This document shows positions 25,759 to 31,568 of a stretch of DNA of 64,000 nt, piece by piece. The stretch's first letter is position 1; every line of letters begins with the position of its first letter. The stretch spans positions 558,001-622,000 of the forward strand of contig NZ_CP079800.1 in assembly GCF_028869115.1 (NCBI RefSeq). The letters run 5' to 3'. The stretch comes from Pseudemcibacter aquimaris (GTDB taxonomy: Bacteria; Pseudomonadota; Alphaproteobacteria; Sphingomonadales; Emcibacteraceae). The notes beneath the pieces were generated by a model. That model made no database searches. It worked only from the letters and a program-made list of their open reading frames with translations, and was not told the origin of the DNA. The translations under genes and the position numbers were made by a program.

Positions 25759-26886
25759 ATGTCGAAAATTAAAATCGCGATTGCAGGTATTGGTAACTGC
25801 GCAAGTTCACTTATTCAGGGTATTTACTATTATACACCAGAACGTGTTGGTTCTGATCATGTTGTACCTGGTCTTATGCATTGGGATGTGGCTGGTTACC
25901 GTCCATGTGATATCGATGTTGTTGCTGCATTTGATGTTGATGCGCGTAAAGTTGGCAAAGACGTAAATGATGCGATCTTTGAAAAGCCAAACTGCACAAC
26001 AGTTTTCCATTCTGATCTACCGAAAAGCGGTACAATTGTAAAAATGGGTAACATTCTTGACGGTGTTTCCGAGCATATGGCTGATTATGATGATAACCGT
26101 ACTTTCGTACTAGACGGCACACCATCAGCAACAAAAGAAGAAATCGTTCAGGAACTAAAAGATAGCGGTACAGAAATTCTTTGTAACTATATGCCGGTTG
26201 GTTCTGAAGAAGCGGCGAAATTCTATGCTGAATGTGCGCTTGAAGCGGGCGTTGCTTTCATCAACAACATGCCAGTGTTCATCGCAAGTAACCCAGAGTG
26301 GGCGAAAAGATTTGAAGAGAAAAACATTCCAATCGTTGGTGACGATATTAAAGCGCAGCTAGGTGCGACAATCACACACAGAACGCTTACTGACCTGTTT
26401 GCGAAACGCGGTGTTGTTCTTGACCGTACATACCAGCTTAACACTGGTGGTAACACAGACTTCTTGAACATGAAAAACCAGGACCGTCTTGCGTCTAAGA
26501 AAGAATCAAAAACAGAAGCTGTACAAGCGGTTGCTGGTGCACGTCTTGATGATGAAAACATCCACGTTGGCCCAAGTGATTATATTCCATGGCAGAATGA
26601 CAACAAAGTTTGTTTCCTACGCATGGAAGGCGACCTGTTCGGTGGTGTTCCAATGAATATTGAACTTCGTCTTTCTGTGGAAGACAGCCCGAACTCAGCT
26701 GGTGTTGCGATTGACATGATCCGTTGTTGTAAGCTAGCGCTTATGAACGGTGAAGGCGGCATTCTAACGGCTGCATCTGCATATTTCTGTAAGCATCCAC
26801 CAGTACAATATACTGATGATCAAGCATACGAAATGACAGAAGAGTTTATCGCGTCACGTGTTAAAGCAGCGAGTGCAGCAGAATAA
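25759..26886 (+). CDS. ino1: inositol-3-phosphate synthase
   Basis: 375-residue NAD-dependent enzyme that turns glucose 6-phosphate into 1D-myo-inositol 3-phosphate. The N-terminal Rossmann motif is IAGIGNCASSLIQG; further family blocks are NYMPVGSEEA, PIVGDDIKAQLGAT, LNTGGNTDFLNM and the catalytic region SVEDSPNSAGVAIDMIRCCKLA. This is the actinobacterial/archaeal short form. It overlaps the next gene by one base (TAATG), a tight pairing with the nucleotidyltransferase. Confidence 0.93.
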   Translation: MSKIKIAIAGIGNCASSLIQGIYYYTPERVGSDHVVPGLMHWDVAGYRPCDIDVVAAFDVDARKVGKDVNDAIFEKPNCTTVFHSDLPKSGTIVKMGNILDGVSEHMADYDDNRTFVLDGTPSATKEEIVQELKDSGTEILCNYMPVGSEEAAKFYAECALEAGVAFINNMPVFIASNPEWAKRFEEKNIPIVGDDIKAQLGATITHRTLTDLFAKRGVVLDRTYQLNTGGNTDFLNMKNQDRLASKKESKTEAVQAVAGARLDDENIHVGPSDYIPWQNDNKVCFLRMEGDLFGGVPMNIELRLSVEDSPNSAGVAIDMIRCCKLALMNGEGGILTAASAYFCKHPPVQYTDDQAYEMTEEFIASRVKAASAAE

Positions 26887-27602
26887 TGAAGCTTCTAATC
26901 GTAGCCGCTGGACAAGGCACAAGATTACGTGAAAAAGGTGAAAGCAAGCCGCTGATTGAACTCGGCGGCGAGCCTATCATCGAACGCGTAATTAAAAATG
27001 CACGTGCCGGCGGCATTGATGATTTTTATGTTGTGACCGGGTATCGCGGTACAAAGGTTCGTACATTTCTGGATGAGTTGGCGGAACGCGAGAAACTAAG
27101 TATTACGCATATCATTAACGATGAATGGCAACGCCCGAATGGACTGTCTGTTGCGTGTGCCAAAGATGTTATTGATGGGCCGTTTGTGCTTACAATGTGT
27201 GACCATTTGTTCGATCCGGAAATCATTAAAGATCTACTGTCGCATGATCATGAAGATGACACAGTGACATTATGTGTTGATTACAACATTGAAAACCCAG
27301 TGGTTGATCTTGAAGATGTGACGCGTGTGAACTGCACAAAGAATGAGATCAGCAATATCGGAAAAGTGATCCGTGATTATAATGCTTTTGATACGGGTAT
27401 TTTCTATTGTACAACTGCTATGTTTGATGCACTTGATAGGAGCGCGAAAGAAGGTGACGAAAGTATTTCGGGCGCCATGAATGTTCTTGGCGCGGCTGGT
27501 AAGGCCCGCACATTCGATATTAAAAATCGTCTATGGCTTGATGTTGATGATCCGATGGCTTTTGGTAAAGCCATTGTTTACGTTGACCAAGGTAAGCTTT
27601 AA
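26886..27602 (+). CDS. nucleotidyltransferase, probable CTP:inositol-1-phosphate cytidylyltransferase
   Basis: 238 residues with the nucleotidyltransferase signature LIVAAGQGTRLREKGESKPLIELGG, the N-x-x-W...NGLSVACAKD block and the MCDHLFDPEII metal site. In hyperthermophiles the related IPCT enzyme makes CDP-inositol for di-myo-inositol phosphate. Direct coupling to ino1 and a CDP-alcohol transferase nearby point to inositol phosphate as substrate. A choline-phosphate (LicC-like) or sugar-phosphate substrate cannot be excluded from sequence alone. Confidence 0.7.
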   Translation: MKLLIVAAGQGTRLREKGESKPLIELGGEPIIERVIKNARAGGIDDFYVVTGYRGTKVRTFLDELAEREKLSITHIINDEWQRPNGLSVACAKDVIDGPFVLTMCDHLFDPEIIKDLLSHDHEDDTVTLCVDYNIENPVVDLEDVTRVNCTKNEISNIGKVIRDYNAFDTGIFYCTTAMFDALDRSAKEGDESISGAMNVLGAAGKARTFDIKNRLWLDVDDPMAFGKAIVYVDQGKL

Positions 27603-27605
27603 AAA

Positions 27606-27920
27606 TTATTTATCAGCACCACTGATTTTTTTGTGGTGCTGAATTACTTCCTCAATAATAAAATCCAGAAATTTTACTGAGAAATCAGGGTCGAGTTGCG
27701 CTTCTTCCGAAAGTTTACGAAGGCGCTCAATTTGTGTTGCTTCACGTGCTTTGTCAGATGCAGGCAGGCCGTATTTGGCTTTATAATGCCCGACTTTCTG
27801 AGTGATCTTAAATCGTTCAGCAAGCATATTAATCACGGCGGCATCGATGTTATCGATACTGTTTCTATATTCGATCAGTTTTGATTTTTTTTCTTCTTCG
27901 GTCGGAATATGTTCGCTCAC
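27606..27920 (-). CDS. chorismate mutase (AroQ type)
   Basis: 104-residue all-helical monofunctional chorismate mutase giving prephenate for Phe/Tyr. AroQ marks are YRNSIDNIDAAVINMLAERFKITQKVGHYKAKYGLPASDKAREA (Arg, Lys and Glu of the active site) and the final helix. It meets the cytidylyltransferase gene tail to tail with 3 bases between. The hairpin at 27613-27642 lies inside its 3' end. Confidence 0.88.
   Translation of the reverse strand: MSEHIPTEEEKKSKLIEYRNSIDNIDAAVINMLAERFKITQKVGHYKAKYGLPASDKAREATQIERLRKLSEEAQLDPDFSVKFLDFIIEEVIQHHKKISGADK
27613..27642. terminator. hairpin between convergent genes
   Basis: TCAGCACCAC (27613-27622) and GTGGTGCTGA (27633-27642) form a perfect 10-base stem around a T-rich loop. 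It lies in the last codons of the chorismate mutase gene, just past the end of the plus-strand pair. On the minus strand it is followed by TAAATAATTTTT, a partial U tract, so it may end both transcripts. Confidence 0.5.
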
Positions 27921-27987
27921 TTTTAAAGCCTCTTCGTTTTAATCGTTCCAGAACTTAGCAAATCTTACGCGTAAAGAAAAAGTGTTT

Positions 27988-29520
27988 TTATAGGAATTTT
28001 GCTTTTAATTTTTTTACGTCCGATTTTTTCATGGCGATAAACAACATTGATAACCCGTATATAAGGAATAATACAGGTAAACCCACTGCAAAACCCCATC
28101 CGTTAATAAGATCGAACGGGGAAATGATTGTTATCAGATGGAACAATCCTGCTGCCACGGCGGCCGCAAGAATGACCCGGAAAATATCAAAAGTAATCAT
28201 ATTGATGCTGTAAAGCTTGATGATGGTAATGACACGCACCAAGTTCATCAGGAAATATGTACTGCATAATGCCATGGCAACACCAATCGGGCCAAAATCA
28301 GAATATTGGGTGAGTAGATAGGCAAGCAAAACATAAACAGGAATCATCGTCAGTGATATGATCGGGTTAAAGAGCGGCGTGCGGTAAATCACCGGAAGAT
28401 CCGCCATGCCAAAGCCGCCATTGATGGTTTCGCCCACCATCAAATAAAACAGAACAATACCACCGATTATGGCCATGTTCGGTTCAGTGCCAGCGGGCAG
28501 GATGGCGTTAAATATGGTTTCGCCATAAAATACACAAAGAATGACAAGCACACTTTGAATCATCAATATCCATCGCGATACCATGATCATTTGTTTCTCA
28601 ACCGTAACAAAATCTTTTTCGACCAGATTTTTCGCCATTACCGGTGAAAGAATAGGGTAGAAACTTTGGTATATTTTCTCGACGGATGTGGCGAATTGCT
28701 GGGCAATGGTATAAACACCAAGCACCGCTTCAGAGAAGAAAAACTTAACAGTAAAAATATCCATACGCATGAAGACAAGAAGTGCCAAATCATGAAATGC
28801 CGTTGGTCCTGAAAAACGCATCAAACGTTTCATTAATTTAAAATCAGGGCGAGCCTTGATGGTTTTTTCAAATGAATATAAATGACAAAAACCCCATATG
28901 GCATAAATAAGCGCGGCAATCAGGGCTACTGCATAAGCCATCAATAATCCAAATGTGGTAAAGCCCATATAAAAGAACAGAAGCATAGATCCAAGCAACA
29001 TATAGGGTTCAACAAGACTACGGGATATGACCTCATATCGCATTTTACGGGTGGCGCGTGTGCCCGCGAGAATGACATCAAGTGCTGTGATGATGATCAC
29101 CATCGGCGCAAGAGATTTAAGCCCCGGTACCATTTCCGGATAATCAAAAATGTAGGCAAGGAATTCCGCACCCAGAATAATAAGGCCAGTGAATATCAGG
29201 CTGACAATCACGGAACTCAGAAGCGCGGAGACCATCACCTGTTCTATGGAATAACGACCCGAATATTCATCATCGTTAATAAATTTAAAAAGTGACCGTT
29301 TAAAGCCAAATGTGGCGAACGCAGCGCATATTTCAATGGTTGTGATCGTATAATTATAACGGCCATAAAGTTCGTTACCGAAAAGCGCAACAGCTAATAT
29401 TAAAAAAGGAAGACGTGAACCAAGCCGGATAATAAAACCAAAGAAGTTGGCACCCGCCCCCTTGGCAATATCTTTATTATCCTTTGCCGTGGTGGCGGCC
29501 TTTTCCTGTTCTGGCGACAT
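27988..29520 (-). CDS. Wzx/MOP-type flippase
   Basis: 510-residue integral membrane protein with about 12-14 spans, of the polysaccharide-transporter (MOP) superfamily that flips lipid-linked sugars or lipids. The N-terminal GAGANFFGFIIRLGSRLPFL and the amphipathic FGFKRSLFKF segments fit this group. It lies between chorismate mutase and a secreted protein and shares the strand with the CDP-alcohol phosphatidyltransferase, so it may export a product of the inositol locus (inference). Confidence 0.8.
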   Translation of the reverse strand: MSPEQEKAATTAKDNKDIAKGAGANFFGFIIRLGSRLPFLILAVALFGNELYGRYNYTITTIEICAAFATFGFKRSLFKFINDDEYSGRYSIEQVMVSALLSSVIVSLIFTGLIILGAEFLAYIFDYPEMVPGLKSLAPMVIIITALDVILAGTRATRKMRYEVISRSLVEPYMLLGSMLLFFYMGFTTFGLLMAYAVALIAALIYAIWGFCHLYSFEKTIKARPDFKLMKRLMRFSGPTAFHDLALLVFMRMDIFTVKFFFSEAVLGVYTIAQQFATSVEKIYQSFYPILSPVMAKNLVEKDFVTVEKQMIMVSRWILMIQSVLVILCVFYGETIFNAILPAGTEPNMAIIGGIVLFYLMVGETINGGFGMADLPVIYRTPLFNPIISLTMIPVYVLLAYLLTQYSDFGPIGVAMALCSTYFLMNLVRVITIIKLYSINMITFDIFRVILAAAVAAGLFHLITIISPFDLINGWGFAVGLPVLFLIYGLSMLFIAMKKSDVKKLKAKFL

Positions 29521-29537
29521 ACGCTACAATCTGGTTA

Positions 29538-30641
29538 TTAACGTCTTCTGCGGCGACGGTCTTTTGATGCGGCTTTCTTCACAGGCTGAATATCGACATA
29601 TTCACTTAGTGCCTTACCGGTCAATTGCTGTTCGCCTTCAGACGTTTTATATACCAGATTATAGTCGGCAATATAGCGAAAATTTGTAATCACTGGATTT
29701 GATTTGGCAAATGAACGTTCAAAAAAGTTCAGATGATCATTCAAATTGAAGTGATCCATTTTCTTGGTAAAGATGACTTCGCCTTCGATATCGCCTTTTT
29801 CGCCTTTTGCCTTGATTTTTAATTTGCGTGGATAACTTGCATCTTTTTCCTTGGTCATATTTTCATATTTAATGTCAACATCGGAAAAAGTATCAAGCGT
29901 TTTATCAGCGACGAATAATTTGAAAATAGTATCCTCATTATCATCCGGTCTGTTGATAGCGGATAGGAAAATTTTGTGATTTGCATCACCGACCGTAGTT
30001 ACACGGGTCCAGTTTTTAATAAGTTGATCGACCTTATCGGTCATCAGAACATGGACACCAAATCCTTCGGTGATGTCTGCATTATGTACGGGACCATTTG
30101 GTTTAAAGCCTGCTTCTTCGCCAAGCTGCCAATTACCGTATCCTTTTAAGGACGGGGCGTAATAACTCGTTTCAATATAACCTTCATCACTGGAATAACT
30201 GTCATGTGAGAATGCGGGAATTGGTGATTTTGAATTGATATCAACAATTGCCATTGTGTTTTCAAGGTGCACATTTACATCATCACCACTACCGCTTAAT
30301 CGGTGGGTATGGATAAAAATATCAAGCACGTCTTCCTTATATCCCCAATCACCAAAATTACGGCCATTTTTTATGACATATAATTCACCTTCTGGTGTCA
30401 CGAGAGTGCCAAGCATAATGCCGTGGTCTTTGCCAACGGGCCACGGGAAATTGGCCACAAGAAACTGACTGGTTACCAGTGATCCATCGGAAAGATAGAA
30501 ATACTGTTCCCAATATTCCGTGTAATTTTTGTCTTCTAACATCATTGGGCGTTTGTCATTGATTTCATGAGCTTGCACCATATGAAATGGGAAACTCATA
30601 ACAAGGGCCAAACTAACAATAATCTTTTTAAAGCTCATCAA
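29538..30641 (-). CDS. secreted beta-rich protein with hexa-arginine tail
   Basis: 367 residues, not firmly recognised. A signal peptide (FKKIIVSLALVMSFPFHMVQA) precedes a long beta-rich region; the pattern with paired Trp/Gly-rich blocks is reminiscent of lipocalin-like CrtC/AttH or Svf1 proteins, which bind lipids, but this is tentative. The C terminus is KKAASKDRRRRRR, six consecutive Arg at the very end. It lies between the flippase (17-base gap) and the CDP-alcohol phosphatidyltransferase (27-base gap), which suggests a linked envelope function. Confidence 0.55.
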   Translation of the reverse strand: MMSFKKIIVSLALVMSFPFHMVQAHEINDKRPMMLEDKNYTEYWEQYFYLSDGSLVTSQFLVANFPWPVGKDHGIMLGTLVTPEGELYVIKNGRNFGDWGYKEDVLDIFIHTHRLSGSGDDVNVHLENTMAIVDINSKSPIPAFSHDSYSSDEGYIETSYYAPSLKGYGNWQLGEEAGFKPNGPVHNADITEGFGVHVLMTDKVDQLIKNWTRVTTVGDANHKIFLSAINRPDDNEDTIFKLFVADKTLDTFSDVDIKYENMTKEKDASYPRKLKIKAKGEKGDIEGEVIFTKKMDHFNLNDHLNFFERSFAKSNPVITNFRYIADYNLVYKTSEGEQQLTGKALSEYVDIQPVKKAASKDRRRRRR

Positions 30642-30668
30642 AGGCTTTCCTAATACCGCACAATTAAA

Positions 30669-31568
30669 CTAAAGAATTTCTTTCAGTTTCATTGTGAATA
30701 AATCATTTAATATTTTCTGTTTCTGCACCAGGAACATCAATGCAATATTCAAGGCGACAATTTCAAACCAGAAATAATATTCAGGTTCACCGCTAATTGA
30801 CGCGATAAATATGGCAAAAGTACGGTAATTGGCACAAAGAATTGACCAGTTATTCACGGCGGGCGCATATAATTCACGGTAAAGCGATCTGATATCACTT
30901 TCTTTTTCGGGGGCGAGTGAAAGAACCTCTTTTAACGAATGGCGGAAATTACGGTCAACACCGCTAAATGCATATTGCATGCGGATATAACCAATATGTA
31001 ATTGATTGGCGATCTGGCCCATTCCTGACTTTGTGCGGCCTTCTTCTATCATGTCATTGATACTTGGCAGATCGGCATTTTCCTTGCCCTTACCCCAAAA
31101 ATCATATTCGCTACGTTGAAGTTCATATGCGCCCGATTGGATTGCATGACAAACGCCCGCAAAAATTGACAAGAACCAGATTTCATTGCCGAATGTCGGT
31201 GCAAGTGCAAGTGACAAACCAACATAAACACTAATGAATGTCACGTAATCGCATACGCCATCGATGACTTTACCAATTTCAGAAAAATTTTGCGTTGCAC
31301 GGGCAAGCTGACCATCCGCACCATCAAACACATGCCACATAAACATCAGTAAAAAACCAAGCGCAGCGAGTAGCGGGTTTTGATAATTATAGTAACAAAC
31401 GCCAGCCAGCAAACCACAAGCCATACCCATGGATGACACCATGTTCGGGGTGATTTTTAAGTCAATGAATTTCGGGACGAGCCAGCTGCTGATCGGGTGG
31501 ATGATATGTACGTTCGAGAATTCCTCGATATCAAGGGTACGTTTTACATCGTCCTGACTATTTTCCAT
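30669..31568 (-). CDS. CDP-alcohol phosphatidyltransferase family protein
   Basis: 299 residues with several membrane spans. The complete CDP-alcohol motif D82-x2-D85-G-x2-A-R-x8-G99-x3-D103-x3-D107 is intact. The enzyme joins a CDP-activated group to an alcohol. With ino1 and a cytidylyltransferase nearby, it may use CDP-inositol with inositol phosphate or a lipid alcohol, as in di-myo-inositol-phosphate synthesis, or CDP-diacylglycerol with inositol phosphate. The cytosolic loop NADLPSINDMIEEGRTKSG is longer than in PgsA. Confidence 0.82.
   Translation of the reverse strand: MENSQDDVKRTLDIEEFSNVHIIHPISSWLVPKFIDLKITPNMVSSMGMACGLLAGVCYYNYQNPLLAALGFLLMFMWHVFDGADGQLARATQNFSEIGKVIDGVCDYVTFISVYVGLSLALAPTFGNEIWFLSIFAGVCHAIQSGAYELQRSEYDFWGKGKENADLPSINDMIEEGRTKSGMGQIANQLHIGYIRMQYAFSGVDRNFRHSLKEVLSLAPEKESDIRSLYRELYAPAVNNWSILCANYRTFAIFIASISGEPEYYFWFEIVALNIALMFLVQKQKILNDLFTMKLKEIL

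Follow-up and report, generated by a model that had tools for sequence, protein, structure and literature searches.

Five intact, uninterrupted genes at positions 25759-31568 of a 64,000-nucleotide stretch of the Pseudemcibacter aquimaris genome (the window, positions 558001-622000 of a single contig of 3.37 Mb) encode, on the forward strand, an inositol-3-phosphate synthase (MIPS) and a nucleotidyltransferase (NTase) and, on the reverse strand, a flippase, a secreted protein and a CDP-alcohol phosphotransferase (hereafter the transferase). From sequence and gene context we incline to the view that this locus serves to synthesise an inositol phospholipid through head-group activation and to export it, with ceramide as the most likely acceptor. 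The initial annotation of this DNA had proposed a locus for the activation, transfer and export of inositol phosphate; this outline stands, while the product is corrected to most likely an inositol sphingolipid.

In the scheme that we propose, MIPS would convert glucose 6-phosphate to inositol phosphate, from which, together with CTP, the coupled NTase would form CDP-inositol. The transferase, a membrane protein, would then use CDP-inositol as the donor of phosphoinositol for a lipid alcohol, with release of CMP; the acceptor would most likely be ceramide, giving inositol phosphoceramide, and possibly diacylglycerol too. The flippase would bring the lipid across the inner membrane to its outer face. 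The secreted protein, a predicted double lipocalin in the periplasm, would carry the lipid, or help to carry it, towards the outer membrane.

Probable activation of inositol phosphate

The five genes named in the initial annotation are all present as intact reading frames, and in a scan of eight window proteins against Pfam at curated cut-offs the MIPS, NTase, flippase and transferase were matched over threshold (Table 1). The gene list was incomplete in that it passed over a chorismate mutase gene between the NTase and the flippase. The TAATG coupling described for the first two genes was found as such: the MIPS stop codon TAA (26884-26886) and the NTase start codon ATG (26886-26888) have one base, 26886, in common. 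The MIPS itself scores 424.7 bits against TIGR03450, under the cut-off of 638.

The NTase had been taken for an inositol-phosphate cytidylyltransferase (IPCT), and the comparisons agree with this. Its top NCBIfam model is that of the bifunctional IPCT/DIPPS protein, NF041135, at 126.7 bits (1.1e-36), with the next model at 74.6 bits; it fails the NF041135 cut-off of 580, which was set for the fused protein. The closest solved structures are the IPCTs 2xme, 4mnd and 4jd0, which come before the phosphocholine enzyme 1jyk, and R13, K21, D106 and H107 do not vary across an alignment of 83 sequences (the window included), some rows of which may be one genome reached twice. By sequence, the protein thus belongs with the IPCTs, being nearest to the characterised ones and retaining the active-site Arg, Lys and Asp. 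Because of this likeness and of the MIPS gene coupled upstream, there is a strong case for inositol phosphate as by far the likeliest substrate, and the NTase very likely forms CDP-inositol.

The CDP-alcohol transferase

The window transferase matches PF01066 and carries the signature D-x2-DG-x2-AR-x8-G-x3-D-x3-D, which places it among the class I CDP-alcohol phosphotransferases. The motif is intact, as annotated: its eight fixed residues (D82, D85, G86, A89, R90, G99, D103 and D107) do not vary among 52 aligned sequences, the window's included, in which the rows of two loci (L031 and L123) are probably the same gene. R152 and R249 are conserved in at least 90% of these rows; two acceptor-site arginines, R153 and R191, are named in a paper on phosphatidylinositol phosphate (PIP) synthase.

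The cut-offs of models for specific enzymes were missed, namely those of PIP synthase (NF045883; 38.7 bits, cut-off 170), archaetidylinositol phosphate synthase (NF040950; 44.3 bits, cut-off 180) and the Bacteroides PIPS BT1523 (NF052561; 25.5 bits, cut-off 350). Against NF041135 the transferase scores 35.6 bits for a cut-off of 580, a weak test, as this model was built on a fused protein. Choline/ethanolamine phosphotransferases are among its top sequence matches. There is good reason to see CDP-inositol as the donor of the transferase; its acceptor is likely to be a lipid, and that this lipid is ceramide seems reasonably probable.

Conservation of the gene set

Among 147 genomes of the window's order, surveyed with one best match per genome and second matches left out, 53 carry the transferase and 53 the NTase, and 50 carry both (Fisher 8.5e-32, descent ignored). 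MIPS, found in 57 genomes, accompanies the NTase in 53/53, and in 51 of the 53 genomes having both it lies within 10 kb of it. Transferase and NTase are no more than 10 kb apart in 36/50 genomes; in the other 14, most of which fall in one genus of the window's own family, the two are far apart on one contig (3) or on different contigs (11). The exceptions are three genomes with a transferase and no NTase (G009, G075, G101) and three with the reverse (G042, G045, G072), and the contig of G045 starts inside the flippase gene. The secreted protein occurs in 36 genomes, 34 of which have the transferase. In the closest relatives, those of the window's genus, the six-gene arrangement, chorismate mutase included, is identical in 11/11 named loci; the nearest named relatives are metagenome-assembled genomes (MAGs) of Kordiimonadaceae/Emcibacteraceae, the closest being UBA4441, with 85% in the transferase. 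Given the 50 joint genomes among 53 and 53, and the 11 identical arrangements, the association of these genes exceeds chance.

The three-gene core reaches well beyond this order. A single scan of 84,980 species with the transferase alignment (tblastn, E up to 1e-3) gave 331 stretches that encode a transferase relative, 80 of which were kept, so that the core is spread far wider than a single organism. The transferase family is patchy, since in a sample of 387 genomes of the class it exceeds 400 bits in only four, one of them the window's own. The genes of MIPS, NTase and transferase form a compact run on one strand, in that order, in Acetobacteraceae and Nitrospirillum, while the Rhodothermus type and one Bacteroidetes locus have the order transferase, MIPS, NTase, with a MIPS and NTase only 24-35% identical to those of the window. 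Among the matches listed by a literature search on phosphatidylinositol in these genera, none bore on the point. The three-gene run is also present in Acidisoma cellulosilytica (L101), whose description, in the portion available, lists an unknown phospholipid and no phosphatidylinositol and is uninformative here (PMC8537097). A MAG labelled Geothrix (L073) bears an inositol-sphingolipid cluster like that of Acidocella, through transfer or misbinning.

Association with ceramide genes

In many relatives the three inositol genes stand among sphingolipid genes, for which we use the labels CerS, CerR, AasR and AcpR of work on Caulobacter. At 57 loci we counted SPT-type genes in 28, ACP in 27, CerS in 23, AasR in 20, CerR in 18, and LptF-like and LptG-like genes in 44 each, the genes being named by best match to queries from the Acidocella aromatica locus (L070) at E up to 1e-8 and not by curated models. 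These 57 come from the 80 loci kept, 23 others (L048-L069 and L079, of Emcibacteraceae/Kordiimonadaceae type by similarity) having been left out, and many of them lie on short-cut contigs. Several groups among the 57, including Gluconacetobacter and the Rhodothermus type, have no ceramide gene near the locus.

The genes around the run in A. aromatica encode a fatty-acid hydroxylase, a GNAT protein, an epimerase, an AMP-binding enzyme, a DXD glycosyltransferase, an SPT-type aminotransferase-fold enzyme, GT4 enzymes, a PIG-L-type protein, a flippase and an LptF/LptG pair. Relatives of the DXD-motif glycosyltransferase occur in 20/57 loci and of the PIG-L-type protein in 21/57. That these two accompany inositol and ceramide genes suggests that such clusters make glycosylated inositol phosphoceramides.

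The association holds at the level of genomes as well. CerS was found in 50/51 tested genomes with the transferase family, including Gluconacetobacter, Rhodothermus, Rubricoccaceae and a Bacteroidetes MAG, the sole genome without it being an Acetobacteraceae MAG (L085), as compared with 58/372 genomes of the class (52/366 without six listed members of the order), a contrast that is inflated by relatedness. The 51 genomes are those of 48 of the 57 loci plus three others (G351, G441, G490), nine short loci (L077, L078, L083, L089, L100, L106, L108, L111, L114) being excluded; at least two of the 51 entries seem to be one genome (G490 and that of L072, which share the same match), and one is from the window's own order; the contig bearing L123 is equal in length to that of G053, a genome of this order. 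Within the class samples alone, CerS is present in 3/3 genomes with the family and 49/363 others (p = 0.003, descent ignored, on the assumption that the two class samples coincide).

Some 280 kb from the locus, at L134, the genome of the window carries matches to five ceramide genes, AasR-, CerR-, ACP-, SPT- and CerS-like, and thus has the set by which we recognise the ceramide pathway, so that ceramide is very probably available in this organism. The SPT reaches 621.4 bits, over the NCBIfam cut-off of 500, and similarities to the genes of A. aromatica are 44% for CerS, 49% for AasR, 34% for CerR and 36% for ACP, the last a weak match (52 bits). An LptF/LptG pair lies between SPT and CerS, and a protein of 319 residues encoded between LptF and SPT (Table 1) matched neither a Pfam nor an NCBIfam model at the thresholds applied.

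Two observations temper the proposed reading. Inside the order, SPT and CerS are useless as markers, with matches in 144/147 genomes (some weaker SPT-type ones possibly being other enzymes of that family) and 141/147 genomes, respectively, so that the ceramide genes of the window's genome cannot by themselves single out ceramide as the acceptor. In addition, joint conservation of the whole set is limited in reach: all five genes are together in the window's genus (11/11) and MIPS, NTase and transferase far beyond it, whereas the flippase family and the secreted protein are largely restricted to the window's own relatives. Our confidence in ceramide as the acceptor is moderate.

Alternative acceptors and products

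The head group might be activated as proposed and the acceptor be diacylglycerol, the product then being ordinary phosphatidylinositol. This is rather unlikely, even though the best matches of the transferase include choline/ethanolamine phosphotransferases, enzymes that act on diacylglycerol, and the same first lipid step has been proposed for a cluster of Bacteroides vulgatus, going by the available part of that paper (PMC9246714), because it leaves unexplained both the CerS in nearly all tested genomes with the family and the SPT-type genes at about half of the loci.

Phosphoinositol from CDP-inositol could also be attached to a surface glycan or lipid-linked oligosaccharide, the Wzx-like flippase moving the oligosaccharide. 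At one locus (L034), the MIPS and NTase genes have GT4 glycosyltransferases, a weak Wzz match and ABC-2 exporter genes as neighbours, so that CDP-inositol may feed a glycan there; the gene runs at L037 and L038 look similar. The window flippase, too, fits polysaccharide-type models, but none of the eight window proteins scanned matched a glycosyltransferase (a scan that did not extend to the rest of the window or to the loci of its genus), and we regard a glycan product as improbable for the window.

Di-myo-inositol phosphate, or another soluble inositol diester acting as compatible solute, with the flippase and lipocalin as unrelated neighbours, was considered as the main product and demoted because of the ceramide association of loci (28/57) and genomes (50/51 against 58/372). 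The recurrence of flippase and MMPL genes at the locus in several families and, as a weak test, the low score of the transferase against the fused-protein model also speak against a solute, which is now distinctly improbable; the initial annotation's preference for a lipid-linked product is upheld.

Finally, the NTase might use another phosphate, for example phosphoglycerate, in a pathway resembling that of ceramide phosphoglycerate, given that Caulobacter CpgD is in the same broad cytidylyltransferase group and, in the available text, has Thermotoga maritima IPCT as its best structural match (PMC12275187), but the NTase gene overlaps MIPS in the window and MIPS accompanies the NTase in all 53 order genomes having it (at survey thresholds), which makes this highly improbable.

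Flippase and predicted secreted lipocalin

Export of the inositol lipid would fall to the flippase and the secreted protein. The flippase belongs to the MOP/Wzx group by its matches to PF01943 and PF13440, which are polysaccharide-type models. A flippase relative adjoins the transferase or NTase gene at 11 farther loci (L028, L030, L033, L044, L045, L047, L125, L149, L150, L152, L153), 8 of which also have an MMPL-type transporter; none was seen at six loci (L029, L034, L037, L038, L042, L043) that are presumably of Sphingomonadaceae type. BLASTP found no homology between the window flippase and that of the Acidocella cluster, so that a flippase recurs there, although not demonstrably of the same family.

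The secreted protein has an apparent signal peptide and is predicted to fold into two lipocalin barrels side by side, an AttH-like double lipocalin. Pfam and PDB sequence searches with it gave nothing useful, and 1 of 28 aligned members has a Lipocalin_9 match, a weak one (0.027). Its C-terminal end is basic (KDRRRRRR), and the consensus of the 28 sequences retains the basic tail. A double lipocalin, Svf1 of yeast, has been proposed as a ceramide carrier (PMC10583516). The window protein resembles it in predicted domain architecture, and it differs in that Svf1 works between endoplasmic reticulum and Golgi while the window protein appears to be secreted. The flippase and secreted protein are less well supported as general partners of the inositol core, and for the direction and cargo proposed for them the support is weak to moderate.

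Gene arrangement and neighbouring genes

The reverse-strand trio converges on the MIPS-NTase pair. Because the gaps between transferase and secreted protein and between secreted protein and flippase are only 27 and 17 bases, by mechanical open reading frame ends, the three genes probably form one operon. The chorismate mutase gene keeps its position between NTase and flippase in all 11 loci of the genus and is probably a passenger, a positional neighbour.

In other genera a second CDP-alcohol transferase with an NTase-like N-terminal half adjoins the locus (Table 1). It was found in 30/147 genomes of the order and in 0/13 of the window's genus, and its N-terminal half has a weak NTP_transf_3 match (in L033). 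The gene of a pyridoxal-phosphate-dependent decarboxylase recurs upstream of both transferase genes in most of the Emcibacter-type loci given for it in Table 1.

Table 1. Genes of the window locus (window positions) and further genes at other loci (locus label and position)
Feature	Length (residues)	Position	Strand	Matches
MIPS, inositol-3-phosphate synthase	375	25759-26886	+	PF01658 3.3e-35, over cut-off
IPCT-like NTase	238	26886-27602	+	PF12804 and PF00483 over cut-off; NF041135 top NCBIfam model
Chorismate mutase	104	27606-27920	-	PF01817, NF006691 and TIGR01795 over cut-off
MOP/Wzx-type flippase	510	27988-29520	-	PF01943 and PF13440 over cut-off
Secreted protein, predicted AttH-like double lipocalin with basic tail	367	29538-30641	-	
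CDP-alcohol phosphotransferase, proposed CDP-inositol:ceramide (or diacylglycerol) phosphoinositol transferase	299	30669-31568	-	PF01066 over cut-off
Second CDP-alcohol transferase	about 460	L033:8327-9709, L041:8366-9748, L046:5356-6729, L047:4877-6322, L044:8476-9828, L030:8945-10456		
Pyridoxal-phosphate-dependent decarboxylase		L041:9858-11291, L046:3837, L058-L063, L066, L079		Nearest model diaminobutyrate decarboxylase, far under cut-off
DXD-motif glycosyltransferase		L070:6702-7703		
PIG-L-type protein		L070:15980-16726		
Protein between LptF and SPT	319	L134:11806-12765		None in Pfam/NCBIfam at thresholds used

Relation to known pathways

The initial annotation held that MIPS, NTase and transferase are the parts of the di-myo-inositol phosphate pathway, known mainly from hyperthermophiles. 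Such genes are not confined to hyperthermophiles, since a comparable set, consisting of MIPS, an NTP transferase and a CDP-alcohol phosphatidyltransferase, has been proposed, without confirmation, as an alternative inositol lipid cluster of B. vulgatus and Prevotella (Heaver et al. 2022, PMC9246714). The likeness is one of gene kinds and extends to the proposed CDP-inositol, and those bacteria make sphingolipids, with inositol dihydroceramide detected. As far as the available part of that paper goes, phosphatidylinositol on diacylglycerol is the proposed first lipid step there, a HAD hydrolase is thought to shift phosphoinositol from phosphatidylinositol to ceramide, and a flippase and lipocalin, such as the window locus has, go unmentioned. 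No HAD hydrolase match was found among the eight window proteins scanned (elsewhere in the genome none was searched for). The same part of the paper describes an inositol-dihydroceramide-like lipid from Novosphingobium acidiphilum, which has no homologue of either known cluster.

The B. thetaiotaomicron route, BT_1522-1526 (PIPS, phosphatase and AUR1-like synthase), shares with our proposal the MIPS and the inositol phosphoceramide product. It differs in that PIP-diacylglycerol is made first, a route in which the lipid is activated, as CDP-diacylglycerol, and not the head group. With the di-myo-inositol phosphate pathway of archaea and bacteria (MIPS, IPCT and DIPPS) the window system shares an IPCT-like NTase and a transferase whose fold resembles Archaeoglobus fulgidus DIPPS, but NTase and transferase are separate, in contrast to the fused IPCT/DIPPS protein, and the ceramide linkage and flippase belong to the window system.

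Among the papers examined, the closest parallel from Alphaproteobacteria for which an enzyme has been assayed is CpgD of Caulobacter; it forms CDP-glycerate and is required for ceramide diphosphoglycerate (PMC12275187). As described in the available part of that work, the CpgA-D system likewise concerns an alphaproteobacterial sphingolipid head group with a CDP-activated donor thought to be made by an IPCT-like NTase; its donor is CDP-glycerate, whereas the window locus uses MIPS and a CDP-alcohol transferase. A search of open-licence papers showed, among the matches listed, no account of an alphaproteobacterial pathway to inositol sphingolipids with such a set of genes. The window system is thus a variant of a proposed route, which has a new gene context and brings with it a link to ceramide and candidate exporters.

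Significance

More tentatively, the locus may represent a one-step CDP-inositol:ceramide phosphoinositol transferase system, an inositol phosphoceramide synthase working by head-group activation and differing from both the enzyme of eukaryotes and the Bacteroides route that has been characterised, with an export line of its own consisting of the flippase, MMPL proteins in other families and an Svf1-like double lipocalin; the Acidocella-type lipid might then be glycosylated, and the family might supply the missing genes for the lipid of N. acidiphilum, of whose inositol-dihydroceramide-like lipid it is a candidate source. If this were true, the Acidocella-type product would be a bacterial counterpart of the glycosyl inositol phosphoceramides of plants and fungi.

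Inositol lipids are rare in bacteria, and a CDP-inositol route to them has so far only been proposed in the literature examined. The locus offers a compact and widespread gene set for such a route, present in cultured strains of Gluconacetobacter, Acidocella and Nitrospirillum, whose genome-wide co-occurrence with CerS ties the route to ceramide and which comes with candidates for the export of the lipid.

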